Shown piece after piece: positions 606 through 60,287 of a stretch of 60,287 bases of DNA (its first letter is position 1; every line of letters starts with the position of its first letter). A program made the position numbers and the translations under genes. The notes beneath the pieces were generated by a model. It was not told the origin of the DNA, did not search any database, and saw only the letters and a list, made by a program, of their open reading frames with translations. The stretch is from a virus: IMG/VR virus record IMGVR_UViG_3300025132_000036, positions 1 to 60,287 of that record; one strand, 5' to 3'.

Positions 606-613
606 TTTGATAA
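606..613 (+). promoter_or_regulatory. TATA-type promoter before the virion operon
   Basis: TTTGATAA is centred about 28 bp before the ATG of the metallophosphoesterase gene, the spacing expected for leaderless archaeal transcription. It follows the T-run terminator directly and would drive the rightward virion operon. Confidence 0.55.
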
Positions 614-29848: not shown

Positions 29849-30822
29849 ACCCAGTCCTCCGACACGCCGGTATATGAAACCGTAGGGTCCGGTTCGACCC
29901 CGAGCATCTCCGACTCACAGGCCATGTTGAAGTCGCACCATTGGGTGCAGAAGTAATCGTTCCACTTCATGCCCCACATGTCTTCGATGATACCAGTCAT
30001 GGCCTTATCCAAGGACTTGTGCATGGCGTTCACGGAGCGTGTACCGACCTTCTCAAGCACGGCCATACCCTGAAGGTCACCAAGCCAAACCTCGGTGTTC
30101 TTCTTGCCCTCGAGTTCAGCGTACAGGTCATAGTTCTCGCATTCGGGGAACAGGTAATAGAAGTACACGGCCTCTTCGCCCCACAGTTCAGCGAGCATGT
30201 GCCGATAGAAACACAGTTCCTTGCGGGTCTTGCTGAGTTTGTTCTTGGTGGCCTTGCCGGTCTTCAGTTCAGCGATGACCAGTCCACCGTCAGGGTGACG
30301 GAGCACACCGTCAATCATCCCCACGAAGTTGAAAACGTGTGACCCATGCTCGTGCCTCAACACGTGCTTCTGCTCGAACTCGACGGGCGTGAAGTGTTCC
30401 TCGCCCCACCGATGCAAGCGACCGTGTTCCAATTGGATAAGGGAATCCACGGCCCCGGTGTATCGGTTTTGTTGGTCCTCGTCCCACTTGGCGTGCGGCT
30501 CATGTGCCTCACCGTCCTCCCAATTGACCCCGGCAATCGCAGCCATATCTGACTCAGGCTTCCAGTTCCCATACACGTTCTCAAGAGCGGTGTGAACCGC
30601 CGTTCCGTGAACCATGTGGTGTGTCGAGGGACCATACAGGTCAGCGACTCGAGTCCACCAGTACTTGCGGGGACAACCGAGGTAGGTCATAAAGGCCGAC
30701 TTGGACAGTCGGATAGGCCAACCGTTAGCCTTTGCGAGCAAAGGGTTGGGGGTTCCTTCGGTTTCGCCATGGATGGCGTACCATTCGGGACTGTACTTCT
30801 CAGGCGTCTTGTTCTGCGTCAT
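29845..30822 (-). CDS. Cas4/RecB-type Fe-S nuclease
   Basis: A 325-residue PD-(D/E)xK nuclease. Visible motifs are SKSAFMTYLGCPRKYWW with Cys50, VHGTAVHTALE near 71-81, GMIDG at 168-172 and ELKTGK at 185-190. Cysteines 292, 296 and 302 near the end, with Cys50, match the four-cysteine iron-sulphur cluster of Cas4 and AddB-type nucleases. It would process DNA ends for recombination-dependent replication. No cas1 or cas2 gene or CRISPR array is seen, so an adaptation role is unlikely. Confidence 0.88.
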   Translation of the reverse strand: MTQNKTPEKYSPEWYAIHGETEGTPNPLLAKANGWPIRLSKSAFMTYLGCPRKYWWTRVADLYGPSTHHMVHGTAVHTALENVYGNWKPESDMAAIAGVNWEDGEAHEPHAKWDEDQQNRYTGAVDSLIQLEHGRLHRWGEEHFTPVEFEQKHVLRHEHGSHVFNFVGMIDGVLRHPDGGLVIAELKTGKATKNKLSKTRKELCFYRHMLAELWGEEAVYFYYLFPECENYDLYAELEGKKNTEVWLGDLQGMAVLEKVGTRSVNAMHKSLDKAMTGIIEDMWGMKWNDYFCTQWCDFNMACESEMLGVEPDPTVSYTGVSEDWV

Positions 30823-31087: not shown

Positions 31088-31110
31088 GTTCATACCCACC
31101 TGTCTTTTGA

Positions 31111-31118
31111 CTTTTAAT
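31111..31118 (-). promoter_or_regulatory. TATA-type promoter overlapping a stop codon
   Basis: On the minus strand the context is TGATTAAAAGTC. The TGA is the stop of the preceding zinc-ribbon gene. The box is centred about 27 bp before the ATG at 31087, predicting a leaderless transcript for the nuclease/primase segment. Confidence 0.55.
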
Positions 31119-31396
31119 CATTCTTCCTCGTCAGCAAGGCTGACGAAGCACTTGGGACACTTCTCCGGCGGCGGTAGTTCACCAACCTTCGGATGCAGAA
31201 TCTCAAACTCGCACTTGGGACAATTGCTCCTCTCGAGCAAGTCGAGGTGGTCACACAGGCCACCGACAACGGACGAAAGCCGCATCATATCTTCACCAAT
31301 CGCTTGGAGAGCGTGGGTCATCTGTTGGTTCAGAGCCAAGATGCCCTGCTCCAATTGTCCCTTGCTCATCTGTGGTCGGTTCCTTTGTCCCCTCAT
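31118..31396 (-). CDS. Coiled-coil protein with C-terminal zinc ribbon
   Basis: A 92-residue protein: a helical, Gln/Leu-rich N-terminal part (residues 10-55) and a C-terminal ribbon with two CPKC pairs at about 59-62 and 79-82. Its ATG lies exactly 26-27 bp after a TTTAAGTA box, so the transcript should be leaderless. It follows the polymerase gene. It may link the polymerase to other factors, but no family is recognised. Confidence 0.65.
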   Translation of the reverse strand: MRGQRNRPQMSKGQLEQGILALNQQMTHALQAIGEDMMRLSSVVGGLCDHLDLLERSNCPKCEFEILHPKVGELPPPEKCPKCFVSLADEEE

Positions 31397-31418
31397 GTCC
31401 TCATCTCCTATCCGCCAG

Positions 31419-31426
31419 TACTTAAA
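31419..31426 (-). promoter_or_regulatory. TATA-type promoter TTTAAGTA overlapping the polB stop
   Basis: The minus-strand box TTTAAGTACTG contains the TAA stop of the polymerase gene. Its centre is 26.5 bp from the ATG at 31396, the exact archaeal TATA-to-start distance for a leaderless mRNA. Confidence 0.65.
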
Positions 31427-33683
31427 GCCATTCCAGCCTACCGATGCCGCGCATGGCGTTGGTCAGCGCCGTAGTGTCCCAGTCCACGAGAGCATACACG
31501 TCGCGTGCCTTGTTCACAATGAATCGCTCAGTCATCTCAGCCCAATCCACCTCGTCCACGCCATCAATGTCGCTGAGCCGGTGGAACGCCATGTAGCGAC
31601 CACGCTTGTTGATGCCGGCGAGGTAAAACCCACCGACCTCAAACTCCAAGCCGAGCGTGTCTTGTGCCCACTTAACGCCGGCCACAGGTCCACCGAGCGT
31701 GCGATAGGACGACAGGGGCTTGCTCAGTTTGCCCACCATCAACAGGGACTCACCGAGTGCCCCGGTCTTACCGTCTTCGATGAGTTCGAGCAGGCGAGCA
31801 TCCACGTCCGCCTGTGGTGTACCGTCGAGGATGCCTCGCAGTACCTCGTCCATGGCCTGCTTCATGGCCTTGGGCATACGCGCCTGCTTGAGTTCCAGTC
31901 CCTTATAGTAGTACTGCGGTTCATCGAGGTACCTGCCGTCAGCCCATGTCGTCTTGCCGGCGTACCGGTTCTTGGCCTTGAGAATCATGGTGCTACACCA
32001 CTTCTCAAACTCAACCTCGATGGGAGCCATGGACTCGTTGATGGCTTCGCACAGAACCATGCCCTCCTCGGGCGTCGGTACCTCGCAGAAAATGGAGTCG
32101 GTGTGGCCGTAGCGTACGGGGTAACCACGGTCATTGCACTCGTCACGCAGGCGGAAGAGCGTCTGCCTCGACGTGTACGTGATGGCGGCTGCAATATCGG
32201 GGTGGTACATGCCGAACTTGGAATCGCCACAGATACCGTACAGGCTCGCCACCATGCTTTTTGTTGCGAATTGCATAGCGTCCCATTTGCTTATAACCTG
32301 TAGGTTTCCCTCTCGGTGAGCCTCCTTAAGCAGCGCCTTGTACTCGTTGCGTTTGACTGTGAGTTTGTCCATGGTGCGACCAAGCACGCCCTGTTCACCC
32401 TGCATGAAACGGATGCCGTTTCCACAGTCCACACCATCGTCAGACAGGGTGTCCCACGAAATGTTGTGAAGGTTCACGTTGCTATGATACATGGCCTTGA
32501 TATCCATGATAGCCATGTTCTGATACCGACCCGGCACCACGTCCTGTACGTCAGCGCCCTGATATTCGACCTTGGTGAACTGCGGACTATCAGGGATGCG
32601 TACGGCGAAGTCCTCGTCCTGAACGAACAGGGACGTGGCGCACACGGTGACCATCGGTGTCGAGGCCAGTTCACATTGAATGAGGTGTTGCAGGGACGTG
32701 TAATACCCAAGCACGTTTAGGGCCTCATCCAACCTCGGTAGCAGACGAACGTCCTGTCGGTTATAGTCGAGGTAAGTCCCTACGTCGGTGTAATACGTGT
32801 CGTGCCCGTTGGGTAGTTCAACCTTCTTCTCACCGAGCACAAACTCAGCCACGTCATCCAGTTTGCGAGCAGCCAATTGCCCATTCTTGATGGTCCACAG
32901 TTTCTTGAAACCGACCATCAGGTCAAAGCACATGCGGCCGGGGATGGGCTGAGTCCACCGCTTCTCGGTCCAAGAGTACTTGAAATTGTGCTGACGATGC
33001 GGCGACATAATCTTGGGGTCAAGCCCAAGCCTTCGCATACGGGTACTGATAGTGGACACGTCGGCGTCAATGAAGAACCAACCCGTCAGGATATCGGGGT
33101 CATGCTTACGCATATGTGATGCGAAGTCAGCAAGCAATTGCCGTTCGTTTGCGAACGCCTTCATGGGCGGGTCCATCACAACCTCGGTCAGTCCTTCAGG
33201 GTGGTCCTTGCAGGGCCACGTCTTGTGCATACCGGCGGGAATGTCGGGGTGCTGAACCCACGTGAACATCTTGCCGGTGTAGGAATCGTACGCCGAGAGC
33301 ATGGTGACTTCTTCAGACTCGGCCTTCCATTCTCCGTCCACGTACCAAACGCGGTGGTCATAGTTCGGATAAGGGTCTTTGCCGGCGGCGAGGCGGTCGT
33401 TCAGCACTTGGTTTGGGAAGGACACCTGCCCCTCCCACGTCCTGTAAGGTTCGTTGCGCCGCCATTGGCCGCGGTCCCATTCGGTCCTGAAGAACGCCTT
33501 CTTGAGCGCCTCACCGTACAGACCCTCGTACCCGTCTTCGGTGCGTACCAGTCCGTACTCATCCTTCCCCTCGGGGATGAACAGGTACGGGTAGGACTCG
33601 ATGACCTCTTCGATACGCTCGAGAGTCTCAGGGTCACGGCGTCGTACCGTGACCTTGCGACCGCCCGTTTGGTCCACAATCAT
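31422..33683 (-). CDS. polB: Family B DNA polymerase
   Basis: A 753-residue replicative polymerase. The 3'-5' exonuclease motifs are DGE in YVDGEWKA (about 116), TGWFFIDADV (about 200-210) and YNRQD (about 307). The polymerase motifs are A, DIKAMYHS (about 394); B, KSMVASLYG (about 474); and C, YGHTDS (about 525). The first Asp of the usual YGDTDS is His; the second, catalytic Asp remains. The start is taken at ATG, since the TTGATATA box is centred 26.5 bp upstream; a TTG two codons earlier would precede transcription start. It lies between two small zinc-ribbon genes in the replication block. Confidence 0.95.
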   Translation of the reverse strand: MIVDQTGGRKVTVRRRDPETLERIEEVIESYPYLFIPEGKDEYGLVRTEDGYEGLYGEALKKAFFRTEWDRGQWRRNEPYRTWEGQVSFPNQVLNDRLAAGKDPYPNYDHRVWYVDGEWKAESEEVTMLSAYDSYTGKMFTWVQHPDIPAGMHKTWPCKDHPEGLTEVVMDPPMKAFANERQLLADFASHMRKHDPDILTGWFFIDADVSTISTRMRRLGLDPKIMSPHRQHNFKYSWTEKRWTQPIPGRMCFDLMVGFKKLWTIKNGQLAARKLDDVAEFVLGEKKVELPNGHDTYYTDVGTYLDYNRQDVRLLPRLDEALNVLGYYTSLQHLIQCELASTPMVTVCATSLFVQDEDFAVRIPDSPQFTKVEYQGADVQDVVPGRYQNMAIMDIKAMYHSNVNLHNISWDTLSDDGVDCGNGIRFMQGEQGVLGRTMDKLTVKRNEYKALLKEAHREGNLQVISKWDAMQFATKSMVASLYGICGDSKFGMYHPDIAAAITYTSRQTLFRLRDECNDRGYPVRYGHTDSIFCEVPTPEEGMVLCEAINESMAPIEVEFEKWCSTMILKAKNRYAGKTTWADGRYLDEPQYYYKGLELKQARMPKAMKQAMDEVLRGILDGTPQADVDARLLELIEDGKTGALGESLLMVGKLSKPLSSYRTLGGPVAGVKWAQDTLGLEFEVGGFYLAGINKRGRYMAFHRLSDIDGVDEVDWAEMTERFIVNKARDVYALVDWDTTALTNAMRGIGRLEWL

Positions 33684-33705
33684 GGCCAACAGTCAGGCCC
33701 GTCAG

Positions 33706-33713
33706 TATATCAA
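33706..33713 (-). promoter_or_regulatory. polB promoter TTGATATA overlapping a stop codon
   Basis: The minus-strand box TTGATATACTG includes the TGA stop of the upstream zinc-ribbon/HTH gene. Its centre is 26.5 bp before the polymerase ATG, so polB mRNA is probably leaderless. Confidence 0.75.
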
Positions 33714-34045
33714 GGCTCGGGTCGCCCACGGCGACGAGTCTCGATGTTGAACCGGCGCAGCCAGTTGTGGATGGTCATAGCCGTCACACCACAGGACGTG
33801 GCGATATCGGACATGGTGCGACCTTCCTTGACGTACGCCTTGGTCAGCCACTTCTTGTCCTTGTATGCGTGCTCCGGGTCCGCCATACCGGCGGTGATGT
33901 ACACCGCCAACAGGGCCGAGCATTCGGGGCATTCGTGAGTAGTACGCAGGCTCTCAGTCCAGTCGGACGAGAACTCGCTACCGTCAGTATTCGGTTGAAG
34001 GGACAACATGGTCCCGCATTCACATTTCACTTTCAAATCGTTCAT
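33710..34045 (-). CDS. Zinc-ribbon/HTH DNA-binding protein, 111 aa
   Basis: A 111-residue protein. An N-terminal ribbon has CxC and CxxC pairs (CECG near 8-10 and CPEC near 39-42). The C-terminal part is a homeodomain-like helix-turn-helix (WLTKAYVKEGRTMSDIATSCG...TIHNWLRRFNI) ending in RRRGRP, an AT-hook-like tail. It is a probable transcription regulator or recombination-associated DNA-binding protein. It sits directly upstream of polB and its stop lies inside the polB promoter, so it could regulate that promoter. Confidence 0.75.
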   Translation of the reverse strand: MNDLKVKCECGTMLSLQPNTDGSEFSSDWTESLRTTHECPECSALLAVYITAGMADPEHAYKDKKWLTKAYVKEGRTMSDIATSCGVTAMTIHNWLRRFNIETRRRGRPEP

Positions 34046-34386
34046 TCAATCACCTGCATGTATTCCATTGTGTTCCCCTTGCCTTTACACATACGCATCC
34101 TGATACGCCCGTCTGCAATCAGAGGACGGAGCAACGAACCGATGGCGTTTTGGCTCAAGGAGTTGAACTTGATAGCGCCCTCCAAGGCGCGATGGAAGAG
34201 AACCTCGGCGGTCATCCATTCGTTGGGCCACCGCTCAAAGGCGACGGCGAGCGCCATACGCACGGCCTTCTTGCCGACGCGAGCACGCCCTACCCAATGT
34301 CCGTGGCGGACCCAAGCGGCTTCGCGCTCAGGACCGTTGTACGTGGTCAATGCACGGAACTTGACCCAATCGGGGTGGTCGCTCAT
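34042..34386 (-). CDS. Winged-helix-like protein, 114 aa
   Basis: A 114-residue basic protein. The pattern TAEVLFHRALEG...SLSQNAIGSLLRPLIADGRIRMRMCKGKGNTMEYMQV looks like a winged helix: a helix, a recognition helix with N-A-I-G-S-L-L, then a beta wing. Three other proteins of this virus share a similar outline. ATGA overlap links it to the clamp-like gene upstream. A regulatory or DNA-binding function is inferred. Confidence 0.5.
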   Translation of the reverse strand: MSDHPDWVKFRALTTYNGPEREAAWVRHGHWVGRARVGKKAVRMALAVAFERWPNEWMTAEVLFHRALEGAIKFNSLSQNAIGSLLRPLIADGRIRMRMCKGKGNTMEYMQVIE

Positions 34387-35189
34387 AGGACCCCCGCCTG
34401 AAACACCCAGTCCCCGTTACCGAAGCGCAGGATAAGGCGAATGCCCTGCCCCTCTGGCCGGAAGTCGAGGAACGAAACCTCAACGTCACCGGAATAATGC
34501 CCGACGATGTTCTCCAGTCCACCCTCAAAGGTGGCCTCGAACGCATCGGCTATGTAGTGCGTGGCGATGATAGTCTCGGTCTGGCCCTTGAAGTGGTCGC
34601 CCACGGTCACAGTCAACTGCGCTCCGTTGTATTTGAACATGTAGCGGTTGAGTTTTTGACCATTCATGCCGTCGCACTTGAGCGCGTCGTGCAGAATATC
34701 GGCGGCGATGTGAGCGACGAAAAACGGCTTGCGTACCGTGCCGTCCATCATGTGATAGAAATTACCCTGAACCCGCTCAGACAACAGAAGCGACTGGTCG
34801 CCCCATTCTTGGAGGTTCTGTCGGCTCGTGGAGAACGCCTTGGCGTCATACCCACCAACCACCGTGGTCTGCTTGTTCTTGGACAAGACCACGACCTTGC
34901 CGTCCTTGTCCTTGAGAGACACCATATCGCCGTGGTACTTCAGTACACCGAGCATACGCTCGATATCGGGGACTGGAATGTCCATGTCGTCCCTGCTCGC
35001 CACATCGGTCTTGAACGAGAAGTGTGAAATCGAGGTCTTGCCGTCCTTGACGAGCGAGGTCGTGGACACGGAGTCATCGCGCCACCGCAGAATACAGGAC
35101 TCAACCTGTGCCTGCGCCTTGCCGTTCACGTGCTGCGTGCGACTGGTCGCCCTGAGCAACGCCGTCAGCATCTTGCGCTTAACCTTCAT
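34383..35189 (-). CDS. Sliding clamp (PCNA-like) candidate
   Basis: A 268-residue beta-rich protein, close to PCNA length (about 250). It lies in a block with polB and an RFC-type loader, where a clamp is expected. Visible points are a basic N-terminal stretch, an IPVPDIERMLGVLKYHGDMVSLKDKDGKVVV strand-helix pattern, and a C-terminal EVSFLDFRPEGQGIRLILRF followed by a hydrophobic end. No diagnostic PCNA motif is certain. The ATG is used; a GTG one codon earlier is possible. Confidence 0.5.
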   Translation of the reverse strand: MKVKRKMLTALLRATSRTQHVNGKAQAQVESCILRWRDDSVSTTSLVKDGKTSISHFSFKTDVASRDDMDIPVPDIERMLGVLKYHGDMVSLKDKDGKVVVLSKNKQTTVVGGYDAKAFSTSRQNLQEWGDQSLLLSERVQGNFYHMMDGTVRKPFFVAHIAADILHDALKCDGMNGQKLNRYMFKYNGAQLTVTVGDHFKGQTETIIATHYIADAFEATFEGGLENIVGHYSGDVEVSFLDFRPEGQGIRLILRFGNGDWVFQAGVL

Positions 35190-35192
35190 CAC

Positions 35193-35438
35193 TCACACCC
35201 AGTAGTTCTCAAAGGTAGCGGCCGGTAGTCCCATCTCCTTGGCCAAAGCACACGCCAGTTCCTTGGCGAGTGCGGTAGTCCGAGTCTGGTTGTCGTATAG
35301 ACTGTGTAGTTCATCAGCCGCTGCTTCGAGGTCGAGGACCTGTTGTTCGAGAACCTTGACCTTGGCGCTGAGGCTTTCCACCAATCCAAAGAGAGTCTCG
35401 TTGGCCTCGACCAACATCTCGTTCAGCCTCTTGCTCAT
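35193..35438 (-). CDS. Coiled-coil protein, 81 aa
   Basis: An 81-residue protein with a long amphipathic helix (residues 1-50, heptads in LFGLVESLSAKVKVLEQQVLDLEAA) and a short C-terminal helix ending FENYWV. It overlaps the upstream ATPase gene. Coiled-coil adaptors of this kind often oligomerise replication or recombination factors. Function unknown. Confidence 0.6.
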   Translation of the reverse strand: MSKRLNEMLVEANETLFGLVESLSAKVKVLEQQVLDLEAAADELHSLYDNQTRTTALAKELACALAKEMGLPAATFENYWV

Positions 35439-36373
35439 TCTTCAGACCCCCAAGAGAGAGGCAGACCGTTCCAAGTCACGTCGCCATCATTGACCCTCAG
35501 CACGTCGAAGACCTTGCCGAGATGCTCGCTATTGCGACCCTTCATCTCTTCGATGTGGGCACGCACGACGAACTCGTTGGAACCGAGGCTCTTGTCGGAC
35601 TCGACACCCGCAGCCTTGTCTCCCTTCTGCGTGTAGCGTCGAAGGAACACCTGCTGCGACACGAACCGCTGCGTACCGTCCACCCAGTCCACCTTTTCAC
35701 CGACCTTCATCAGACCCTTCTGTCCGTTGCCGAGGTCCACGTAGGTCTTGTGGTCCTTGAGGTGGAACGTGAAGAAGATGTAGGGGACAGGCAACGCCGT
35801 GAGGCGGTTGAGCACACCCTTGAACACGCGGTTGCGCTCACGCCATTCCTTCTGGTTGAAGGAGTCGCTCTCGTCCTTGATGGTACCACGAGCGACGAGG
35901 CGCTCGGTCATCACGAACTCGCACCACTTCAGGAAGGTGGAGCCACCATCGAACACCACGGCACCGATGTGCTCAGCGCTATCCGCGATGAAGGAGGTGA
36001 ACCATTCGACCTTCTCGACCACGGCAACCCAGTTCGTCGTGTTGTCCTCGTTCCACATGGCCTCATCGAACTCATCCACCATGGGGATGACGCGAATACG
36101 GTCAGCGAGCGACGGGTCCTTGGAGGTCAGGTAGTCCACCGTGTTGCCGGCGGAGTTATCGCAATCAATGACCACCACGTCCTTGTCCGTGTGAGCCAAA
36201 GCGAGGGACAGGGCGGTGCCTGTCTTGGTCGTGTTCTCCTTGCCGACGAGAGCCATGCGAATCGGCGCGAGGTTCTCGCGCTTGCGGTCGAAGAGAGCGC
36301 GGTAATAGTCCGCACCGAACTTCGCCTCGAGAGGCTTCTCAGCAGGCTTGGCCTTCGTAGTCGCCCACGTCAT
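35435..36373 (-). CDS. RecA-fold ATPase, Sak4/RadA-like
   Basis: A 312-residue ATPase. A Walker A-like VGKENTTKTGTA lies at about 43-53, VVVIDCDN follows, and Walker B AVVFDGGST lies at about 138. The last third is beta-rich. The size and order match phage single-strand annealing or recombination ATPases of the Sak4 type, which act with a cognate SSB. The gene upstream encodes an SSB-like protein, which supports this. The ATG overlaps the upstream stop as TGATG. Confidence 0.7.
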   Translation of the reverse strand: MTWATTKAKPAEKPLEAKFGADYYRALFDRKRENLAPIRMALVGKENTTKTGTALSLALAHTDKDVVVIDCDNSAGNTVDYLTSKDPSLADRIRVIPMVDEFDEAMWNEDNTTNWVAVVEKVEWFTSFIADSAEHIGAVVFDGGSTFLKWCEFVMTERLVARGTIKDESDSFNQKEWRERNRVFKGVLNRLTALPVPYIFFTFHLKDHKTYVDLGNGQKGLMKVGEKVDWVDGTQRFVSQQVFLRRYTQKGDKAAGVESDKSLGSNEFVVRAHIEEMKGRNSEHLGKVFDVLRVNDGDVTWNGLPLSWGSEE

Positions 36374-37584
36374 CAGTCCCAACCCCCGGTGTCCGCGTCA
36401 GCGACCGACTCTTCGGCGGTAGCGCCACCGAGCGACTCAGCACACCACCATGCGGTGGTCATCAGGCGAGGCTCGTCGTCACGGGAAATGTACGGGGAGC
36501 CGACGACCATGAGGGTCGAGCCAACCGAGAAGTCCACGAGAGACTCGTGAGCAGCCGGGACGTACACGTCCACGGTGCCGGCGGTGGACATGATATCCAA
36601 GTCACCGACGGTCACGATGTAGCCACCGTTGTCTCGCGGGTCAATGTGAACGACCTCGGTCATCACGGCAGCGAGAGCGTTCCACTTCTCCTTGTCCCCA
36701 AGGGTACCGACGTAGGCACGAATGCCGTCGAGGGAATCGAGCGTCTTCACACCTTCCAGTTCCGCGACGAGAGCGTCAGGACCACCGGAGAAAATCGAGG
36801 ACAGGGACGTGTCGGCAGCAAAGGACGACATGCCGGCTGCACCGTAGGCGGTGTTGCCGTTGCGAGCAGGCTTCATGGCGATGGTACCGGGCACGAAGGT
36901 GGGGAACTGGTCCTCAGCGAGAGCGCCGCTGAACCGGAACGAGAACACCTCAACGTCACCGCTGCCTTCCTTGCGACCGAGGAACATGCAGGTACGCTCC
37001 TTCTCGGAGAGCGGGCGAGCCGCACCGTACTTGAAGTTCTTCTGACCGGAGGGCCACGTCGGCGTACTGTTGTTCCAAATCATGTGGAAGTGCAGGCCGT
37101 TGCCGACGGCGTAGGTGTCCTTGGGGAGCGACGAAACCTCGGCGGTCGCGTGCTCCATGGAGAAGTCGTCACCACGAGCGAGGCTCGGGTTGTACCGCTT
37201 GGTGTAGGAACCGTCGAGGTTGTCCTCGTACACGGTCACAATACCCTGCTCAACAAGGCCCTCGATGACGGGTTCCTCGGCGGTAGCCAACACGCCTGCG
37301 TTCTTCTTGTACGAAGACTTGGCCCAATCCTTGAACATGGGCACGCTCACGAACATACCCTCGTACACGGCTGCGCCAGACTTGGCGAGGCGCGTCTTTT
37401 GCGTCTTCAATTGGCGACCGGCAATGCGAAGCGCGTTCACTCCACACTCGTCCTCAGTCTTTCCTGCGTTCATCCACGCGCTGCGGTTCTCATCAAGCAC
37501 CTGCTCCATCCGAGCGCGGAGTGCGTCCTCGGTGCTTCCAATGTTCTGTGCAACGCGCTGCATCATCGTATTTAGGTCAGTCAT
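36373..37584 (-). CDS. RPA-like single-stranded DNA-binding protein candidate
   Basis: A 403-residue protein. A helical N-terminal part is followed by beta-rich regions (about 60-200 and 290-370; VHIDPRDNGGYIVTVGDLDI, STLMVVGSPYISRDDEPRLMTTAWWCAES) that look like OB folds. An acidic tail ends in GGWD, as in SSBs that recruit partners by their C-terminus. Its neighbours are the Sak4-like ATPase and the clamp loader. Assignment is by pattern and context; no zinc finger of archaeal RPA is seen. Confidence 0.5.
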   Translation of the reverse strand: MTDLNTMMQRVAQNIGSTEDALRARMEQVLDENRSAWMNAGKTEDECGVNALRIAGRQLKTQKTRLAKSGAAVYEGMFVSVPMFKDWAKSSYKKNAGVLATAEEPVIEGLVEQGIVTVYEDNLDGSYTKRYNPSLARGDDFSMEHATAEVSSLPKDTYAVGNGLHFHMIWNNSTPTWPSGQKNFKYGAARPLSEKERTCMFLGRKEGSGDVEVFSFRFSGALAEDQFPTFVPGTIAMKPARNGNTAYGAAGMSSFAADTSLSSIFSGGPDALVAELEGVKTLDSLDGIRAYVGTLGDKEKWNALAAVMTEVVHIDPRDNGGYIVTVGDLDIMSTAGTVDVYVPAAHESLVDFSVGSTLMVVGSPYISRDDEPRLMTTAWWCAESLGGATAEESVADADTGGWD

Positions 37585-37603
37585 TTCAATCCCTTCTGTT
37601 TTC

Positions 37604-37628
37604 TATTTATCTTCCGCCAGTATATCAA
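37604..37628 (-). promoter_or_regulatory. Two TATA-type boxes before the SSB-like gene
   Basis: On the minus strand a TTGATATACTG box contains the TGA stop of the clamp-loader gene and predicts a 14-nt leader with AGGGATTG as ribosome site. A second A/T-rich box GATAAATA, about 17 bp nearer, would place the start at the ATG itself. Either or both could be used. Confidence 0.6.
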
Positions 37629-38530
37629 TGCTCCGATAGCCGACGACAGAAGTCCCAAACAACGTAGTGCGGTTCAACACCGCTGATGAGGTCACGCTGA
37701 GCCTGTGTGGCTGCGTCAACCAACGCCATTTTTGACTTCGGTCCGGCTTGAGAAGCCACACCGTAGCGGAATACATCATCAATCGCGTGACGCAGGTTCG
37801 CTACCGAACCCATCTCACGCACGGCTTCGTCCACCGAAGCCTCCTTGAAACACAGGGTCAGGACGCGGTGAGCGTCCGTGCCCTGCCTACCGAGGGAGTT
37901 CAGGAAAGCCTGACGCTCCGACTCGGGCAAGTGAGCATATGCTTGAAGCGCGTTGATAGCGTTTCGCAAGTCACCGTTGTGTGCGGAAGCAATGGTACCG
38001 AGGTCATCAGCATCCACCTTCAGTCCCTCGGTGGAAGCAACAGTCACGAGGCGAGCAAGAACGTCGTCATCCGATACAGGTCGGAACTCACGCACGGCGC
38101 AGCGAGACTGAAGCCATGGGGTGACCTTGGACAAGTCGTTGCAGGTCAGGATGAAGAAACCCTGTGCCTCTTCGATTACACCCTTGAGGGCGGACTGAGC
38201 AGCGTCAGTCAATTGGTCGGCTTCGTCAAGGAAATAGACAGACTCATACTGCCCCAGACGAGTCATAGGTGCGAGGTCGGACTCCACGAACTCGATGCCT
38301 CGTTGCCTCTTGGAAGAGGCGTTGTACTTGAAGATGGAGTACCCGAGGCTCTCGGCCAACAGATACGCCATGCTCGTCTTGCCCGTACCGGGTTCGGGTG
38401 AATAGAAGATGTAGTGCTGCATCGGGGCTTCGCCCTTCAGGATAGCCTCGAACTCAGCACGGAGGTGAGGCTGACCCTTGAACTGACCAAGGGTCGAAGG
38501 TCGGTGCTTTGCTGCCCAAACTTGACGCAT
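37625..38530 (-). CDS. rfcS: Clamp loader, RFC small-subunit type
   Basis: A 301-residue AAA+ ATPase. The order MRQVWAAKHRP, Walker A PEPGTGKTS (about 45-53), Walker B FLDEADQ (about 100), sensor 1 TCND (about 130) and SRC with the arginine finger (about 142) is diagnostic of RFC small subunits. It loads the sliding clamp. No separate large subunit is seen, so it may form a homo-oligomer or use the host subunit. The ATG is taken from the TTATATA box centred 26-27 bp upstream; the frame is open a few codons further. Confidence 0.92.
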   Translation of the reverse strand: MRQVWAAKHRPSTLGQFKGQPHLRAEFEAILKGEAPMQHYIFYSPEPGTGKTSMAYLLAESLGYSIFKYNASSKRQRGIEFVESDLAPMTRLGQYESVYFLDEADQLTDAAQSALKGVIEEAQGFFILTCNDLSKVTPWLQSRCAVREFRPVSDDDVLARLVTVASTEGLKVDADDLGTIASAHNGDLRNAINALQAYAHLPESERQAFLNSLGRQGTDAHRVLTLCFKEASVDEAVREMGSVANLRHAIDDVFRYGVASQAGPKSKMALVDAATQAQRDLISGVEPHYVVWDFCRRLSEH

Positions 38531-38553
38531 TGATTCTGTGGCGTACACGCCAC

Positions 38554-38560
38554 TATATAA
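38554..38560 (-). promoter_or_regulatory. Clamp-loader promoter TTATATA
   Basis: The minus-strand context is GAGTTATATAGTGG, two bases after the stop of the upstream gene. Its centre is 26.5 bp from the clamp-loader ATG, predicting leaderless transcription. Confidence 0.7.
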
Positions 38561-38561
38561 C

Positions 38562-38966
38562 TCAACCGGTACGCTCGCAAGTCAGGCACACATCACCCTC
38601 AAGGATGATGCGGGCACGTGCGCAGACTGAGCATTTGATTGACTTCTTCCGGTCAGAAGGACTCATCATGCTTACAGGCTGAGTCATTCGGAGTTCATCC
38701 ACCGAATGAACGATATCCCGGTCCACATCGAACAGGAGGTGGTACGCACGAGTTCCGTTCGTGAGTTCGACACGCTCCCGTCCGACCTCAATGACCTGTG
38801 GGTTCTTCGACATGAGGGCAGACAGGCTATTGGGCGAAGGCACGTTCTTGATGCCCCGGTAGTCCTTGAGGTATTCACCTACCCTGTCCCTCGATAGTGG
38901 GCCATGCCGAAACAGAATCTCGGCAATGGCCCTGCGCACCCTCTTGTTGTTGTTGTTGGAAGGCAC
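38562..38966 (-). CDS. Winged-helix protein with C-terminal zinc ribbon
   Basis: A 134-residue protein, GTG start. The N-terminal winged-helix pattern (AIAEILFRHGPLSRDRVGEYL...SPNSLSALMSKNPQVIEV...RAYHLLFDV) is followed by a ribbon with CSVC and CLTC near 112-130. It probably binds DNA and regulates transcription. The GTG is supported by a TATA-like box centred 28 bp upstream, giving a leaderless mRNA. It belongs to a group of similar wHTH proteins in this genome. Confidence 0.65.
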   Translation of the reverse strand: MPSNNNNKRVRRAIAEILFRHGPLSRDRVGEYLKDYRGIKNVPSPNSLSALMSKNPQVIEVGRERVELTNGTRAYHLLFDVDRDIVHSVDELRMTQPVSMMSPSDRKKSIKCSVCARARIILEGDVCLTCERTG

Positions 38967-38990
38967 TAATAAAACGCAGGTTGACTTAAG

Positions 38991-38998
38991 TACTTGAT
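38991..38998 (-). promoter_or_regulatory. TATA-like box before the wHTH/zinc gene
   Basis: The minus-strand ATCAAGTACTTAAG contains the AAGTACTTAA motif seen in other boxes here. It is centred about 28 bp before the GTG start at 38966 and lies just after the stop of the preceding membrane-protein gene. Confidence 0.45.
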
Positions 38999-39002
38999 GG
39001 GT

Positions 39003-39224
39003 TCAATCCATAGACCGATACATGGACATGGCGAACACTTGGTCCTGTAGTTCGTCGTCGCGCTGACGCTCCGCACGGGTGGGCGGTAGGTCAAAGTCAT
39101 ACATGGGCTTGGCCATCTCGACGGCGAATAACCACCAAAACAAGAGGATGAGCAAGCCACCGAACACCGTCAGGCCGGTGAACAGGACGAGCGAACCCAC
39201 GATGGGGAAGGCGTACGGACTCAA
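39003..39224 (-). CDS. Membrane protein, 73 aa, TTG start
   Basis: A 73-residue protein with one long or two short membrane spans (FPIVGSLVLFTGLTVFGGLLILLFWWLF) and a charged C-terminal tail rich in Arg, Glu and Asp. The TTG overlaps the upstream stop as TTGA, with AAAGGGGG before it. The frame extends further upstream without a better start. Function unknown. Confidence 0.55.
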   Translation of the reverse strand: MSPYAFPIVGSLVLFTGLTVFGGLLILLFWWLFAVEMAKPMYDFDLPPTRAERQRDDELQDQVFAMSMYRSMD

Positions 39225-39607
39225 GGCCAGACCCCCTTTTGCTCTTGCTTGGCGGTGCCGGCCAAGTGAGGAATATGGTACGCCCACGCAGACACCACGG
39301 TTCCGTCGCTCAGCGTAATGTCCAACACGTTGCGAGTATAGTGCTTGGGGAAACCCTCCAGCCGGTCAATATGCCGCATATGGTCCGCATCCACCCGGTA
39401 CACTTCGCCCAAAACTGCGGTATGTCCGTAGGTCATAGCCGGGTAAGCACCAAGGTCCACAAGGTTCCACTTGGGTTCAGTCTTGCCGGCACCCAATAGT
39501 TCAGCACCGCGCAGGAAAGCATCGTTCCATTGCCCGGCCTTCAACGTGCCGTACACGAACAAGCGGTCCACCTGCATAGTCGTTTCATCATTCATCATCA
39601 TAGCCAT
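39221..39607 (-). CDS. Gamma-glutamylcyclotransferase-like protein
   Basis: A 128-residue protein of the GGCT/AIG2 fold. The N-terminal LFVYGTLKAGQ is the family signature, and GEVYRVD...HIDRLEGFPKHYTR carries the region with the conserved glutamate. Such enzymes cyclise gamma-glutamyl amines to 5-oxoproline or remove gamma-glutamyl groups. In a virus that also encodes an amidoligase/amidotransferase, it may edit or reverse gamma-glutamyl amide links; this link is inference. AGGAG lies upstream, inside the end of the previous gene. Confidence 0.85.
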   Translation of the reverse strand: MAMMMNDETTMQVDRLFVYGTLKAGQWNDAFLRGAELLGAGKTEPKWNLVDLGAYPAMTYGHTAVLGEVYRVDADHMRHIDRLEGFPKHYTRNVLDITLSDGTVVSAWAYHIPHLAGTAKQEQKGVWP

Positions 39608-40257
39608 TCCATTCGCTCCTGTTGCTTCTTCAAGACGCCTTTCGGTAGTGCATCGGGGTCGTCACGCCGCACCTCGTTGGTGACGGCGGTGTCGTTCCTT
39701 ACGATAACGTCCCAATGGGCGTCTGATTTACGCATGGAGTCCGGCAGTATATCAATACTGCCGCCGGACTTAGGCGGATAGGAAAAATCTCGGACCTGCG
39801 GTACGCCGAAGGCAATGACGGCTCGGGTGTAGTCGTCGTGGAGGACGTAGCGGCAGCGGGCGAGGAGCCTGCCGACCTCGATATCATCCACATTCGCACG
39901 CACGAAGGCGTTGGCGAGAGGTAGCGGCACAGGGGCGAGCGCACGGTGTGCGCGTTCACGGTCAGCCCAACACAGGACGGCACGCATGGCTCGTCCGTAG
40001 TCGGACTTGGGGACCTTCAGGGTAGCGTCAAGGATGGCGAAGTTCTCGGACGCCGAGGTCAGACGAGGGGCCTTATCACACACGACGACCAAGCGGTAGG
40101 GCACGACCGGTGCCCAGTACAGAACGTCCTTCTCAGCGAAGCGGTCGCTATGCAAAATGAACGTGGTGTCTGGGGCCGTAGGTGGCGTCGTCAGTTCACG
40201 GTGCATCACGAGATAGTGGCCAGTCTGATACCGGCTTGCGTCCTTGGTGTAAATCAC
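39598..40257 (-). CDS. Unknown 219-aa protein
   Basis: A 219-residue protein of mixed composition with no recognised motif. The first part (YQTGHYLVMHRELTT...TFILHSDRFAEKDVLYW) is beta-rich, the middle helical (DYGRAMRAVLCWADRERAHRAL), and the region ARCRYVLHDDYTRAVIAFGVPQVRDF is compact. The GTG at the stated end overlaps the previous stop (TAGTG); another GTG lies three codons earlier. A palindromic promoter-like element lies inside its 3' part. Confidence 0.6.
   Translation of the reverse strand: MIYTKDASRYQTGHYLVMHRELTTPPTAPDTTFILHSDRFAEKDVLYWAPVVPYRLVVVCDKAPRLTSASENFAILDATLKVPKSDYGRAMRAVLCWADRERAHRALAPVPLPLANAFVRANVDDIEVGRLLARCRYVLHDDYTRAVIAFGVPQVRDFSYPPKSGGSIDILPDSMRKSDAHWDVIVRNDTAVTNEVRRDDPDALPKGVLKKQQERMEWL
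39742..39763. promoter_or_regulatory. Palindromic TATA-like element inside a gene
   Basis: Arms CGGCAGTAT and ATACTGCCG are perfect inverted repeats around a short centre that contains TATATCAA, the minus-strand TTGATATA box used elsewhere. It lies about 145 bp upstream of the cyclotransferase gene. It may be an internal promoter with an overlapping operator, or a hairpin in the transcript. Confidence 0.45.
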
Positions 40258-40526
40258 TACTCCCACATAATCACCTCACAGTCGTTTTCGATGGCCCACG
40301 CCACGAAGCGGCGCATCTGATGCGGGGTCAGGCCCCACACTTCGCGCACAGACTTGACTGGGAGTTCATAATCAGCGATGAACCACGCATAACCATTGCC
40401 CCCGCCACCCACGACAAGCGTAAGTCCGTCACCCGCCATCTGTTCACCGAGGCTCGGGAACTCGCTCTCATAGATAGGGCGAGTCATCAGGCTGCGCTGA
40501 GACTTGGACCGCCATTGGCGGCTCAA
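40257..40526 (-). CDS. Unknown 89-aa protein, TTG start
   Basis: An 89-residue protein with a glycine-rich turn (LVVGGGGNGYAWFIADYELP) and an acidic end. The TTG overlaps the upstream stop (TTGA) and follows a near-perfect GAGGTGAT ribosome site. An ATG 13 codons later is an alternative start. No family recognised. Confidence 0.55.
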   Translation of the reverse strand: MSRQWRSKSQRSLMTRPIYESEFPSLGEQMAGDGLTLVVGGGGNGYAWFIADYELPVKSVREVWGLTPHQMRRFVAWAIENDCEVIMWE

Positions 40527-41155
40527 TCCATCACCTCATAGTCGGTGTCCTGTACGTACGTTGGAGGGGCCAACGCGGCGAGGCGTAATTGAATCTGGTC
40601 AAGGTACATCGGCTCGTTGCGTAGCACCTCAACCAAGACGTTCATCAGCATCTCATCGCGGCGTTCGGCAAGGAGCAATTGGTTATCCATCCCAATCTCA
40701 CGCTTCAATTGTCCGGCGAGTTTCAGAACACCCTGTGCCTGAGCCACCAGTTTGGTGAACGAACCGATGACCTCATCGGTCATACCCTCGTCATCCTTGC
40801 GTTGCTCCAGTTCCTCAATCCACGACACGACACGTTGCACGATACCCTCAGTCACGTTCAACGTGTTGATGGTTTCGCTGCGTGCTTCTTCGAGGTATGC
40901 GGCTTCGGTAGGGTCGTACTCGACGTGCATATCCATATGGTTCATCACAGTACCCATGGGCCATTGGTACTTCTGCTCGATGTATGCGGCGGTCGAGTCA
41001 CCACGGTGGACTCGAATCTCAAGTTCACGGCGGTCGGCACGGTTGCACATCGGACAGTCCGTGTTCTCAAGCACCCAAGTCAGGGCCTCGGTCCAACCCT
41101 TCGGGTTCTTGCGGCCCATCATCTCACGAATCTCAGTCTCAGTCTTCATCTTCAA
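40523..41155 (-). CDS. Zinc-knuckle/HTH coiled-coil protein, TerS-like candidate
   Basis: A 210-residue protein. An N-terminal CPMC pair and following basic helix lie before an HTH-like segment (DSTAAYIEQKYQWPMGTVMNHMDMH). Long helices follow (TINTLNVTEGIVQRVVSWIEELEQRK, SFTKLVAQAQGVLKLAGQLKREIG). The HTH-plus-coiled-coil layout resembles terminase small subunits, and no other candidate lies near terL. The gene is in the replication block, far from terL, so this is a guess; a regulator is the alternative. Confidence 0.5.
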   Translation of the reverse strand: MKMKTETEIREMMGRKNPKGWTEALTWVLENTDCPMCNRADRRELEIRVHRGDSTAAYIEQKYQWPMGTVMNHMDMHVEYDPTEAAYLEEARSETINTLNVTEGIVQRVVSWIEELEQRKDDEGMTDEVIGSFTKLVAQAQGVLKLAGQLKREIGMDNQLLLAERRDEMLMNVLVEVLRNEPMYLDQIQLRLAALAPPTYVQDTDYEVMD

Positions 41156-41390
41156 CCCCCCATACCTTGCAGTTCGGCCATCGGTTACCCATGGCTACCC
41201 ATGCAGCACGAGTAATGGTGAAGAATCGCGGGTCCGCCTTGAGGACCTGCGAGCCTGAGTTCGCGTTCGGTACACCGGCAGGGCTTTGCATGGGACGTAC
41301 GACTTCACACAGGGTGCGGATATCCGTAGGACCATGCTGCTGAATGTACAGGAAGCAGGCGTTGCGCCATCGAACGTATCGAATCCTCAT
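41139..41390 (-). CDS. Small wHTH-like protein, 83 aa
   Basis: An 83-residue basic protein. The outline (ACFLYIQQHGPTDIRTLCEVV...SQVLKADPRFFTIT) resembles the first half of the winged-helix proteins elsewhere in this genome. The start is fixed by GGAGGA directly upstream and an ATGA overlap with the helicase stop. A regulatory role is inferred. Confidence 0.55.
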   Translation of the reverse strand: MRIRYVRWRNACFLYIQQHGPTDIRTLCEVVRPMQSPAGVPNANSGSQVLKADPRFFTITRAAWVAMGNRWPNCKVWGVEDED

Positions 41391-42676
41391 TCCTCCACCT
41401 CCACGTCGCCAATCAGGACCTTGATACCGCGTCGCCCACGGCCTCCTGACGGAGCACGTACTTCGGTGTACCACGCCTGTTGAAGTAGGTTATCCACAAC
41501 CCAACGCTTGGCGGCTTGGTAGTCACCCATGGTAATCATGCGGCTGACCTCCTTCAGCAATTGCGAACGACTCAGCGATGTGTTCCAAAAGGTCGTGCGA
41601 ATGAGAGCGAGGTCAGCGTCCATCACGTTGCGGCGCATGTGCAGACAGTCATCGAGGATGCGGAGCAGTTCGTCGTTCATGTCCACATGCAGGACCTCGC
41701 CGCCCCGGTAGTCCGGGGACATGATGGCGTAGCCAAGAGCAAGACGGCGGAACAGGTCGGCCTCGTGAGAGCGCACGGCAGGTTGGAAAAGCCATTCATC
41801 GAACTCCTCCGAGAAGGTGATACCGGTCGGCGGCTTGCTGATAACGTCCAACGCTCGCTCGATGAAGAACTCACGGATGCGGAGAGTCAAGGCAGCAATC
41901 TCAGCGCGGTCGGCTGCGGTCATGGAAGCCTGTCGTGCTTGGGCACGCTTATACGCGGCCTCCTTGGCGGGACTCATGGCGATATCAATGACGAAGAACC
42001 GACGGTCCAGTCCAGACTCCAGTTCAAAACGACCCGGCTGAGTACCTGCCCATAGGGTGAAGCGAGTAAGGTACTCAACCCACCCTGCCTTCATCACCTT
42101 CTTGACGCGACCGTTATCCGTGGACGTGAGCAATTGGTTGGTGATATCGGCGCTATGGTCCTTGCGCCCTGCGTCGGTCAGCGAGGAGAACTCCTCGAAG
42201 CCAAGGAAACCACCACACATCTCACGTGCAAGTGGACGACCAGTCACCTCACCCTCCTCGTCCACCGAGCCGAACATACCGGCCTCGGTAATCGAGTTCG
42301 GCCCAATGTCCGTACGGAATCCCATACCAAGGTCGGCAGCGTTGGGTTCGTACAGAAGACCCGTGCCGGGGCTGAGGAACATTTGGATGAGGGCTGACTT
42401 ACCCGAACCCTTCGCACCGCGCATCAGAATGTGCAGGCGCGTGTCCGCAACGTGAGACATGGGCGTGTAAAGCGGGCGTTGGTCATGGCGCAGAATACAC
42501 GAGTCAATGGCGAACGCATTCTCGTCACCAGTCGGCACGTGTGGGCAGTAGCCGCACTTGTTCAGTCCGTTGAAGATGTGGGTACCGATGGAGCAAATGA
42601 ACACCGGTACCTTATCGTCCACGTCAATGTAGTGGTTCAGGTCGGTGTATCGCTTTACGGCTTGGAAAATGTCCAC
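41387..42676 (-). CDS. AAA+ ATPase, MCM-like replicative helicase candidate
   Basis: A 429-residue ATPase. Walker A is GAKGSGKSA at about 87-95, and a Walker B-like FLGFEEF at about 157-163 has the acidic pair shifted to EE. Later come a TLWAGTQPGRFELESGLDRRF segment holding sensor-1 and arginine-finger-like residues, and a winged-helix-like C-terminus. The order resembles the AAA+ core of MCM without its large N-terminal domain. Cysteines near 28, 41, 44 and 60 could bind zinc. In a genome with polB, primase and RFC, a replicative helicase role is likely. Confidence 0.65.
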   Translation of the reverse strand: MDIFQAVKRYTDLNHYIDVDDKVPVFICSIGTHIFNGLNKCGYCPHVPTGDENAFAIDSCILRHDQRPLYTPMSHVADTRLHILMRGAKGSGKSALIQMFLSPGTGLLYEPNAADLGMGFRTDIGPNSITEAGMFGSVDEEGEVTGRPLAREMCGGFLGFEEFSSLTDAGRKDHSADITNQLLTSTDNGRVKKVMKAGWVEYLTRFTLWAGTQPGRFELESGLDRRFFVIDIAMSPAKEAAYKRAQARQASMTAADRAEIAALTLRIREFFIERALDVISKPPTGITFSEEFDEWLFQPAVRSHEADLFRRLALGYAIMSPDYRGGEVLHVDMNDELLRILDDCLHMRRNVMDADLALIRTTFWNTSLSRSQLLKEVSRMITMGDYQAAKRWVVDNLLQQAWYTEVRAPSGGRGRRGIKVLIGDVEVEE

Positions 42677-42680
42677 TCGT

Positions 42681-43529
42681 TCACCCCCACATCGGGTTGC
42701 CGTTCTTGGTCGGAATGTTCGTCGTCGTGTTGCGCAGGGCTTGGTTGATATCAGCCATCATCTCATCGAACGACTCGTGTCGCTCCTTCATCTCATCCAC
42801 CGCACGAAGCAGGTTGTCCCGCTCCTCGTCGGCATAGCCGCCGAGTTTGCTTGCGAGAGCCTCAGCCGCCGCCACGTCCACGCGGGCATCAGGCTCGTGG
42901 CCCGCAACGACGATACGTGTATCGCCGCGCTTGCCGTCTGTCTGAAGGTGGTGAATCAGGGGGAAGAGCCAAGCGGTCGGTGCGGTGAAAATGGACTTGC
43001 CTCCGAGGTCCGCGGGCTCATCGAGCGACCATTCAACGAGAGTCCCCGTAGGGACCTTGGCGAAGTGTTGGGGGTCGAGAACGTCGTGCATCGTGGTGGT
43101 CGTCAGAAACACCATCTCGTACGGATGGTGGTCGGTGTGCATGGCCCCGAAAAACAACGTACGCAGAAGCGTGAGGGTGTCCCGAATCGCCGGGTACACG
43201 CGCAACCACGTGGCCTTGGCGTTCTCGGGCGGCATGAGCGGCGTGTCGGGCCACTCGTTGATGTTGAGGTACACCGTCGAATTGTCCTCGTTGACGAACA
43301 CTTCCCAACCCGGCGTGTGCAAGTCGGGCAGGTCGTTGAACACGTGGTGGTCAATCATGTGCGACATGAGAACCGCGTTGGGACTACGCCCTGCGAGTTT
43401 CGCCTGTACCGCAATCCACGGTGCAGCGCCATGCTCATGCTCGCTGAAAACCACCAGTCGCCTGAACCGGTGTTCATAGTTCCAAGGGTCCATTTCATAC
43501 ATGTCCATAACTCCGTGTTGTCGCATCAT
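42681..43529 (-). CDS. Unknown 282-aa protein, possible PAC2-like fold
   Basis: A 282-residue protein. The C-terminal half (FTAPTAWLFPLIHHLQTDGK...TRIVVAGHEPDARVDVAAAEALASKLGGYADEERDNLLRAVDEMKE) resembles the end of PAC2-family proteasome-assembly-chaperone homologs common in archaea. The first half is less clear. If right, the virus could interfere with host proteasome assembly. The match is by eye and weak. A TTAAGTAC box lies 26.5 bp before the ATG, so it probably begins a leaderless transcript reading into the helicase gene. Confidence 0.5.
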   Translation of the reverse strand: MMRQHGVMDMYEMDPWNYEHRFRRLVVFSEHEHGAAPWIAVQAKLAGRSPNAVLMSHMIDHHVFNDLPDLHTPGWEVFVNEDNSTVYLNINEWPDTPLMPPENAKATWLRVYPAIRDTLTLLRTLFFGAMHTDHHPYEMVFLTTTTMHDVLDPQHFAKVPTGTLVEWSLDEPADLGGKSIFTAPTAWLFPLIHHLQTDGKRGDTRIVVAGHEPDARVDVAAAEALASKLGGYADEERDNLLRAVDEMKERHESFDEMMADINQALRNTTTNIPTKNGNPMWG

Positions 43530-43551
43530 AGATTCACCTTACGCACTTCAG

Positions 43552-43559
43552 TACTTAAC
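43552..43559 (-). promoter_or_regulatory. TATA-type promoter GTTAAGTA
   Basis: The minus-strand GGTTAAGTACTG is centred exactly 26.5 bp from the ATG at 43529. As at other sites it contains a stop codon (TAA), here of a possible small frame upstream. Confidence 0.65.
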
Positions 43560-43770
43560 CGTTGAGGTAATAGTTCAGATTGTTTCGGAACTGCAAACGC
43601 AAATCGTTCGAGGGACTGAGGGCCGATTGGCTGAATTGCTTCATTTGTTCATAAGGGTTTGAAGTAATACTAAGAGTATAGTAGTAAGATAGGGGGTCAG
43701 TCCTATTCTTCACAACCCCTATGAAGGAATGAAAGAATACGCCGAACATGCCCCCAGTCCCCCATTCCAT
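43555..43770 (-). CDS. Possible 71-aa protein in an AT-rich island
   Basis: A 71-residue frame with unusual composition for this genome, rich in Asn, Tyr, Ser and Gln (YYYTLSITSNPYEQMKQFSQS). Its TAA stop lies inside the next promoter, as real genes do at four other promoters here. There is no good ribosome site. The DNA is much richer in A+T than its neighbours. It may be a recently acquired gene or not a gene. Confidence 0.3.
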   Translation of the reverse strand: MEWGTGGMFGVFFHSFIGVVKNRTDPLSYYYTLSITSNPYEQMKQFSQSALSPSNDLRLQFRNNLNYYLNG

Positions 43771-47852: not shown

Positions 47853-47860
47853 TATATCAA
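47853..47860 (-). promoter_or_regulatory. TATA-type promoter TTGATATA
   Basis: The minus-strand GTTGATATACTC lies just downstream of the stop at 47880. Transcription should start near 47830 with a 13-nt leader beginning GGAGG. Confidence 0.65.
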
Positions 47861-58788: not shown

Positions 58789-58796
58789 TTGATATA
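58789..58796 (+). promoter_or_regulatory. Early promoter TTGATATA
   Basis: In the context GGGTTGATATAG, centred 26 bp before the ATG at 58818. Transcription and translation starts therefore coincide, although GGGAGGGG lies between box and ATG. Confidence 0.75.
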
Positions 58797-59291: not shown

Positions 59292-59350
59292 GGGGCACCG
59301 CCCGGAGGGAATCCCCTCCTCTCTCCTTTCGGTACCTCTCCCGAGGTGCC
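59292..59350 (+). terminator. Hairpins after paralog 1
   Basis: GGAGGG/CCCTCC hairpin near 59304-59319 followed by a TCTCTCC pyrimidine tract, then a second hairpin GGTACCTC/GAGGTGCC. Similar hairpins follow the other early genes. They probably end or process each transcript before the next control module. Confidence 0.5.
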
Positions 59351-59357
59351 GTTAGGA

Positions 59358-59379
59358 AGACTGTTCCTTACTTAACGTA
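59358..59379. repeat. 22-bp control-module repeat, copy B
   Basis: Identical to the element at 14-35 and at the same relative position, before CTCTCT repeats and a TTGATATA promoter. Confidence 0.75.
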
Positions 59380-59382
59380 TGA

Positions 59383-59399
59383 AATCTCTCTCCCATATG
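59383..59399. repeat. 17-bp pyrimidine-rich repeat, copy 2
   Basis: Identical to the 17-mer at 58690-58706, between the 22-bp repeat and the promoter of paralog 2. Confidence 0.75.
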
Positions 59400-59480: not shown

Positions 59481-59488
59481 TTGATATA
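59481..59488 (+). promoter_or_regulatory. Early promoter TTGATATA
   Basis: In the context GGGTTGATATAG, centred 25.5 bp before the ATG at 59510, with CGGAGGAGC immediately before ATG. A leaderless start is predicted. Confidence 0.75.
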
Positions 59489-60188: not shown

Positions 60189-60287
60189 GACGCCGTAGGA
60201 AAGACTGTTCCTTACTTAACGTAATATCTCTCTCTCCTATCTCTCTCACACAGGTCGCGCGTACGCACCCAGTATGCACATAGGGGA
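60189..60287. repeat. Terminal direct repeat, right copy
   Basis: Exact repeat of bases 1-99. The control module of the 60-residue early gene therefore runs continuously through the junction, which supports a circular or circularly permuted map. Confidence 0.95.

Follow-up and report, generated by a model that had tools for sequence, protein, structure and literature searches.

Archaeal-type TATA boxes often adjoin the preceding stop codon at gene junctions of an uncultured tailed virus and its relatives

The stretch of DNA analyzed here (the window) is the whole of virus contig IMGVR_UViG_3300025132_000036, 60,287 bases long with a 99-bp direct terminal repeat at 1–99 and 60189–60287. Its plus strand carries terminase (Terminase_6C) and portal-like genes (Phage_portal, with a score below its cut-off), and its minus strand carries a replication module comprising a family-B DNA polymerase (PolB), a clamp loader resembling the RFC small subunit, a PD-(D/E)XK nuclease, and an ERCC4-type nuclease. 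The best solved relatives of the clamp-loader protein are archaeal-type RFC small subunits (1iqp and 2chg). Terminase, portal, and archaeal-type replication genes (PolB, RFC small subunit, ERCC4) are all present, as expected of an archaeal tailed virus (Caudoviricetes), and the host of the virus family is, judging from its sequence, probably an archaeon. Our subject is a set of six TATA-like boxes between 31111 and 43559, all present and every one on the minus strand, and their relation to the stop codons of the preceding genes (Table 1).

A first-pass annotation of this DNA had read the boxes as leaderless promoters, with box centers 26.5–27.5 bp from a start codon at 31111, 31419, 33706, and 43552 and with the stop codon of the preceding gene inside the box at 31111, 31419, 33706, and 37621. 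Five of the six boxes do stand ~26–27 bp before a start codon, the exception being 37621. The claimed spacing holds as described for 31419, 33706, and 43552; the 31111 box is centered 27.5 bp from an ATG only if the second one, 31087, is used. Clear cases of a stop inside the box number three (31419, 33706, and 37621). At 31111, the 8-mer with the 27.5-bp center (31111–31118) includes just the last base of the TGA, and the 8-mer that includes the whole TGA (TGATTAAA, 31113–31120) is centered 29.5 bp from 31087; the off-center position of the latter led us to class this junction as abutment and not overlap. The box at 38554, previously placed two bases after a stop, follows its TGA directly. 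Archaeal-type boxes at leaderless spacing are present, from which leaderless transcription would be predicted, but 37621 belongs to a short-leader class.

Table 1. Boxes, associated elements, and genes in the window
Feature	Position	Strand	Remarks
Box TGATTAAAAG	31111..31120	-	Gene 31118-31396 ends in TGA 31118-31120; ATG 31087 at leaderless spacing
Box TTTAAGTA	31419..31426	-	PolB stop TAA (31422-31424) inside; center 26.5 bp from ATG 31396; likewise in relatives L003 and L009
Box TTGATATA	33706..33713	-	Stop TGA (33710-33712) of a helix-turn-helix gene inside; 26.5 bp from PolB ATG 33683; likewise in L003 and L009
Box TTGATATA	37621..37628	-	Stop TGA (37625-37627) of the RFC-like gene inside; 40.5 bp from ATG 37584; short-leader class
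Box GTTATATA	38554..38561	-	Adjoins TGA stop 38562-38564, zero bases between; 27.5 bp from ATG 38530 of the RFC-like gene
Box GTTAAGTA	43552..43559	-	TAA 43555-43557 of open reading frame 43555-43770 inside; 26.5 bp from ATG 43529; box kept in relatives
Box TTCATATA	29871..29878	-	Within PD-(D/E)XK nuclease coding region; leaderless spacing to ATG 29848; found by matrix scan
Box TTTGATAA with downstream GTGCCGAG element	606..613	+	Intergenic; leaderless spacing to ATG 638; found by matrix scan
Downstream element CTGGCGGAAG	37611..37620	-	Directly 3' of box; pattern TATA[CG]TGNCG common to close relatives
PolB gene	31422..33683	-	Overlapping stop/box junction at either end
Clamp-loader (RFC small subunit-like) gene	37625..38530	-	Start set by the 38554 box

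The proposal that the box picks out the true start codon is supported by homology at 38530 (clamp-loader subunit), 33683 (PolB), and 31087. In the last case, all four distinct relatives that align there have GTA or TTA in place of the alternative ATG at 31093 and retain the next ATG, which favors ATG 31087 as the start. The stop codon within the 43552 box is less secure. The open reading frame that it ends (71 codons) is unsupported, with no tblastn match among the related loci examined, and in three distinct relatives the same box does not end any comparable reading frame; therefore, it may not be a gene.

The first-pass annotation had suggested a random-sequence control and a comparison with related genomes, and both were carried out. 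For the control, a position weight matrix was built from 20 distinct sites of relatives, excluding the window and without iteration, and was applied to the window and to 200 synonymous-codon shuffles of it. At a threshold of ≥10 bits, the window contains 10 matches, 4 of them 25–28 bp before a candidate start, far above the shuffles, which average 2.5 matches and 0.085 at this distance (maximum 2). Lowering the threshold to ≥5 bits gives 47 matches, 6 of them at 25–28 bp, compared with 0.81 in the shuffles (maximum 3). The totals at low thresholds do not exceed the control (47 versus 43.0 at ≥5 bits; 69 versus 69.9 at ≥4 bits). An iterated matrix, which grew from 20 to 138 sites, lost specificity and was discarded. 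Unseeded motif discovery in 205 distinct upstream regions returned the Shine-Dalgarno (SD) motif AGGTGA at −13 to −10 and no TATA box; the box emerges solely with seeded or positional counts.

The comparison covered 129 related viral loci (1.27 Mb) with our own gene calls, giving 1439 genes, of which 878 distinct starts were kept. A search with PolB yielded 36 virus loci at 43–71% identity, and a search with the AAA-domain gene at 35435–36373 led to 80 of 134 loci being kept. Both the spacing of the box and its tie to the stop codon recur in these relatives. Box starts form a sharp peak at −30 to −28 (24, 33, and 13 cases), and a second, more diffuse group extends over about −50 to −38. We refer to box starts at −31 to −26 as class A (82 starts, leaderless spacing) and to those at −53 to −37 as class B (67 starts, short leader). 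Per position, class A contains 14.2 box starts and class B 4.2, compared with 0.8 in the trough at −36 to −32 and a background of 1.5. From sequence alone, we read the two positions as leaderless and short-leader promoters, a nonzero leader too short to hold an SD motif apparently being avoided. An SD-like motif precedes 50 of 67 class B starts but 39 of 82 class A starts (p = 0.0008). Among comparison viruses, the haloviruses HVTV-1 and HRTV-8 (first 50 kb each) have 1 class A box at 149 starts, and SIRV2 has 6 class A boxes at 52 starts, 2 of these with a stop within 150 nt.

The non-random association of box and preceding stop, which had been proposed for the window, is borne out across the 129 loci. 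We considered starts with an intergenic gap of 15–70 nt and took as the null the gaps of box-less junctions. The stop precedes the box by 0–5 nt in 32 of the 48 class A cases, against a null of 7.8 (maximum 19), and in 24 of the 49 class B cases, against 5.1 (maximum 15). Swapping gaps between the classes reduces these counts to 0.9 and 1.8, respectively. Another 26 starts in class A and 9 in class B lack an upstream stop within 120 nt. The arrangement might be produced by chance, given that a TATA box tends to contain TGA, TAA, or TAG and a gene reading into it will tend to end there; indeed, a stop is present in one frame of each of TTGATATA, TTTAAGTA, and GTTAAGTA. The GGTTGATATA boxes at 194, 47853, 58789, and 59481 (described below) have no stop function, indicating that the TGA belongs to the box and is not borrowed from the gene. 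Chance of this kind explains overlap and may account for the few overlapping cases, but not the excess of stops 0–5 nt before the box, which persists when the upstream gene has at least 200 aa (19 of 26 in class A and 19 of 32 in class B, against nulls of 3.1 and 3.6). We consider it unlikely as a general account.

Overlap itself is rare. In the family-wide scan, the stop lies inside the box at 1 of 131 box-bearing starts with an upstream gene, a lower bound, since that list lacks the L003 and L009 overlaps at the PolB 3′ end. The idea that stop codon and promoter have become one element is therefore not supported in its strict sense, set against the excess of stops just before the box. The arrangement is real and broader than first described but milder in strict form, abutment being the rule.

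AT-rich boxes behind stop codons might instead be oligo-T transcription terminators of the upstream gene. They do lie close behind stops, and many start with TTT. A terminator, however, should follow stops irrespective of any downstream start, whereas the position of these boxes is fixed relative to the next start: among 60 boxes that immediately follow a stop, 47 are succeeded by a called start at the distance of class A or class B, compared with 72 of 801 box-less stops that have a start 26–58 nt on, and 48 boxes lack any stop within 11 nt. We regard the terminator explanation as very improbable.

The identity of the stop codon is also biased. Where the stop lies 0–2 nt before the box, it is TAG in 19 cases, TAA in 15, and TGA in 1 (34 of 35 TAG or TAA). 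TGA makes up 112 of 201 stops at box-less junctions (p = 7e-10 versus the abutting stops) and 42 of 74 at the remaining junctions on the 23 contigs concerned (p = 1e-8), these p values being optimistic because the rows are related by descent. A check for a transcription factor B recognition element (BRE) found A-rich positions upstream of boxes whose stop is 3–11 nt away, weaker at boxes without a near stop.

The first-pass annotation had also held that such internal promoters come at no cost in length. The gap at leaderless box junctions is typically 30 nt (exactly 30 in 12 of 56), whereas box-less gaps peak at −4 (103) and −1 (57) nt; hence, a promoter costs ~30 nt and the overlap saves a few bases. 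These distances bear on an explanation by pure packing, according to which compaction shortens the spacer until the box is reached, the promoter needs ~30 nt of noncoding DNA, and the stop has no promoter role. The PolB junctions of relatives fit it in part. Rows of the 3′ junction were read by eye; a first-ATG rule picks ATGs inside the box in L026, L034, and L037. Of 34 loci, 28 have a box before the next ATG. The stop lies inside it in the window, L003, and L009 only and elsewhere abuts it or lies up to ~11 nt upstream. The gap is 25–26 nt in these three and 36 nt in the rest of the close clade with the same protein end, as if ~10 nt of spacer had been lost. At the 5′ junction, TGA inside the box is common to the same three; the stop lies ~20 nt further up in other close relatives, and in many distant relatives the genes overlap and there is no box. 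Downstream-gene promoters within open reading frames also occur in Thermococcus kodakarensis (PMC4247193). Packing alone leaves unexplained why TGA is 1 of 35 at abutting stops and 42 of 74 elsewhere on the same contigs. A base preference upstream of the TATA box would explain the deficit, and packing combined with such a preference comes close to the best explanation. We take pure packing to be a real contender whose probability falls somewhat below even.

A further explanation takes the boxes for binding sites of a viral regulator, TATA plus TGNCG forming an operator, with SD-dependent translation from long polycistronic messages. Repeats of the downstream element are confined to the close clade: there, one strand carries TATANTGNCG 4 to 8 times and the reversed pattern 0 to 2 times, and no enrichment was found in 13 more distant records. 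SD motifs are common, and promoters of the halovirus HF2 have additional conserved motifs that have been proposed as binding sites for viral factors (PMC8707807). As in HF2, a conserved viral motif lies beside the TATA box and is kept among close relatives. The boxes of distant relatives, however, keep the same spacing without the TGNCG element, and the higher SD frequency in class B than in class A is explained by start-site spacing and not by an operator. A regulator site therefore seems quite unlikely to us.

We consider it likely that these junctions carry minimal archaeal core promoters lying tight against the stop codon of the gene before, a codon that may itself make up the upstream border of the promoter. 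In the model we propose, TATA-binding protein (TBP) and transcription factor B (TFB) of the host would bind a TATA box that adjoins, and in a few cases overlaps, the stop codon of the preceding gene, at junctions inside a replication module that is otherwise polycistronic. RNA polymerase would initiate ~26 bp from the box center, either on the ATG (class A, leaderless) or 10–20 nt before it (class B). Transcripts initiated further upstream would read through the junction as well, and any gene with an SD motif could be translated from them too. The stop codon would occupy the upstream edge of the promoter, its identity being limited to TAA or TAG because the box abuts it, or, where TGA or TAA is built into the box, to those of TTGATATA and TTTAAGTA. 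With an abutting box, the stop would fall around −33 to −31 relative to the predicted start site, on the edge of the −33 to −37 region assigned to the BRE in HF2 (PMC8707807). A stronger version gives the stop codon a function within the promoter: TFB or TBP would read it as the upstream edge, its identity would be set by transcription and not translation, and the same 30-nt junction would serve both an SD-translated read-through RNA and a leaderless RNA from the stop-anchored box. We put this version forward tentatively and think it rather doubtful.

Several observations weigh against this interpretation. Mutations in the HF2 BRE left promoter activity unreduced (PMC8707807), which counts against a strong BRE role. 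The bias in stop usage is gone or weaker 3–11 nt from the box (TGA in 15 of 42), within class B the position of the box is only weakly correlated with that of the stop (Spearman 0.25, p = 0.09), and by eye the box after PolB is absent from 4 of 34 relatives (L011, L023, L027, and L028). At 19 of 131 box-bearing starts, the box lies wholly within the upstream coding sequence, some of these surely by chance. Leaderless RNAs would not need an SD motif; SD-like motifs are nevertheless as frequent in class A as in box-less genes (360 of 729), and an earlier count gave 27 of 52 for class A and 224 of 406 for box-less genes (p = 0.66). Many class A genes may therefore be read from upstream messages as well.

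Published precedents exist for leaderless archaeal promoters, for promoters within upstream open reading frames, and for viral intergenic promoter repeats. In Haloferax volcanii (PMC4983044), the spacing of BRE/TATA promoters likewise puts the start site on the ATG, and a class with leaders of 0–5 nt, with few of 6–20 nt, resembles the two box positions seen here. The box is not tied to an upstream stop in what is available of that report; in our case, start sites are predicted and SD motifs are common. Unidirectional gene pairs in the same organism show coupled-gene peaks at −4 and −1 nt, as here, but promoter-bearing pairs have gaps of about +50 to +150 nt, which leaves terminator room (PMC10666635), compared with ~+30 and +46 to +50 in our loci, with little room. 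T. kodakarensis has 90 downstream-gene start sites with BRE-TATA inside the upstream reading frame (PMC4247193), whereas here most boxes lie just after the stop and stop usage is biased. The intergenic repeat promoters of HF2, a tailed archaeal virus, form a similar set, with TATA at −26 and extra conserved motifs, and are spread between genes at positions conserved among relatives, as here. HF2 repeats are 29 and 56–58 bp long, longer than the TATA[CG]TGNCG element, and the accessible portion of the report does not mention stop codons (PMC8707807). Our repeat search around the boxes found just a 20-bp family of three copies and no long near-identical repeat of the HF2 kind (29 or 56–58 bp). 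A literature search that did not reach most subscription journals turned up neither an account of a stop codon anchored to a TATA box nor a paper on Poseidoniales promoters.

If the arrangement is as we propose, translation termination and transcription initiation would share bases by rule in a virus family, and stop-codon usage would carry promoter information. Box position alone would then tell leaderless from leadered genes in uncultured archaeal viruses, improving start-codon annotation. The stop-codon bias beside TATA boxes offers a cheap test applicable to any archaeal genome.

Other box-like sequences were observed. A second class, GGTTGATATA, without the TGNCG element, occurs at 194–201 (+), 58789–58796 (+), 59481–59488 (+), and 47853–47860 (−); the three near the genome ends have GGAGG ~13–18 nt downstream of the box. 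These may represent a different promoter class. The box-like TATACTGCCG at 39742–39751 (−) was rejected as a promoter, being coding sequence of gene 39598–40257 that is kept in relatives. In relative G001 (L040), boxes of the form CCCCTATATCA upstream of the called starts 14622 and 17172 look like another promoter class, and one of them is accompanied by a pair of GGGGNNNCCCC-like arms next to an AT-rich run.

With respect to the virus itself, haloviruses are the nearest among the phage records compared, at ~24% identity. A scan of genome contigs for a host gave a sole match, PolB at 28% identity in a metagenome-assembled genome labeled Altibacter; the contig binned there (L058) is perhaps a misbinned virus. 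A TFB gene was looked for within the window and not found, and the suspected sliding-clamp gene at 34383–35189 yielded no family in Pfam or PHROGs. Part of the 99-bp terminal repeat recurs imperfectly at 59336–59396 (80% over 61 nt). The GC content of the window is 58%, compared with 43–45% in G001, G003, G004, and G005, whose PolB is ~70% identical. Finally, a single gene at 54646–57474 (−) combines amidoligase-like and class-II glutamine amidotransferase domains.

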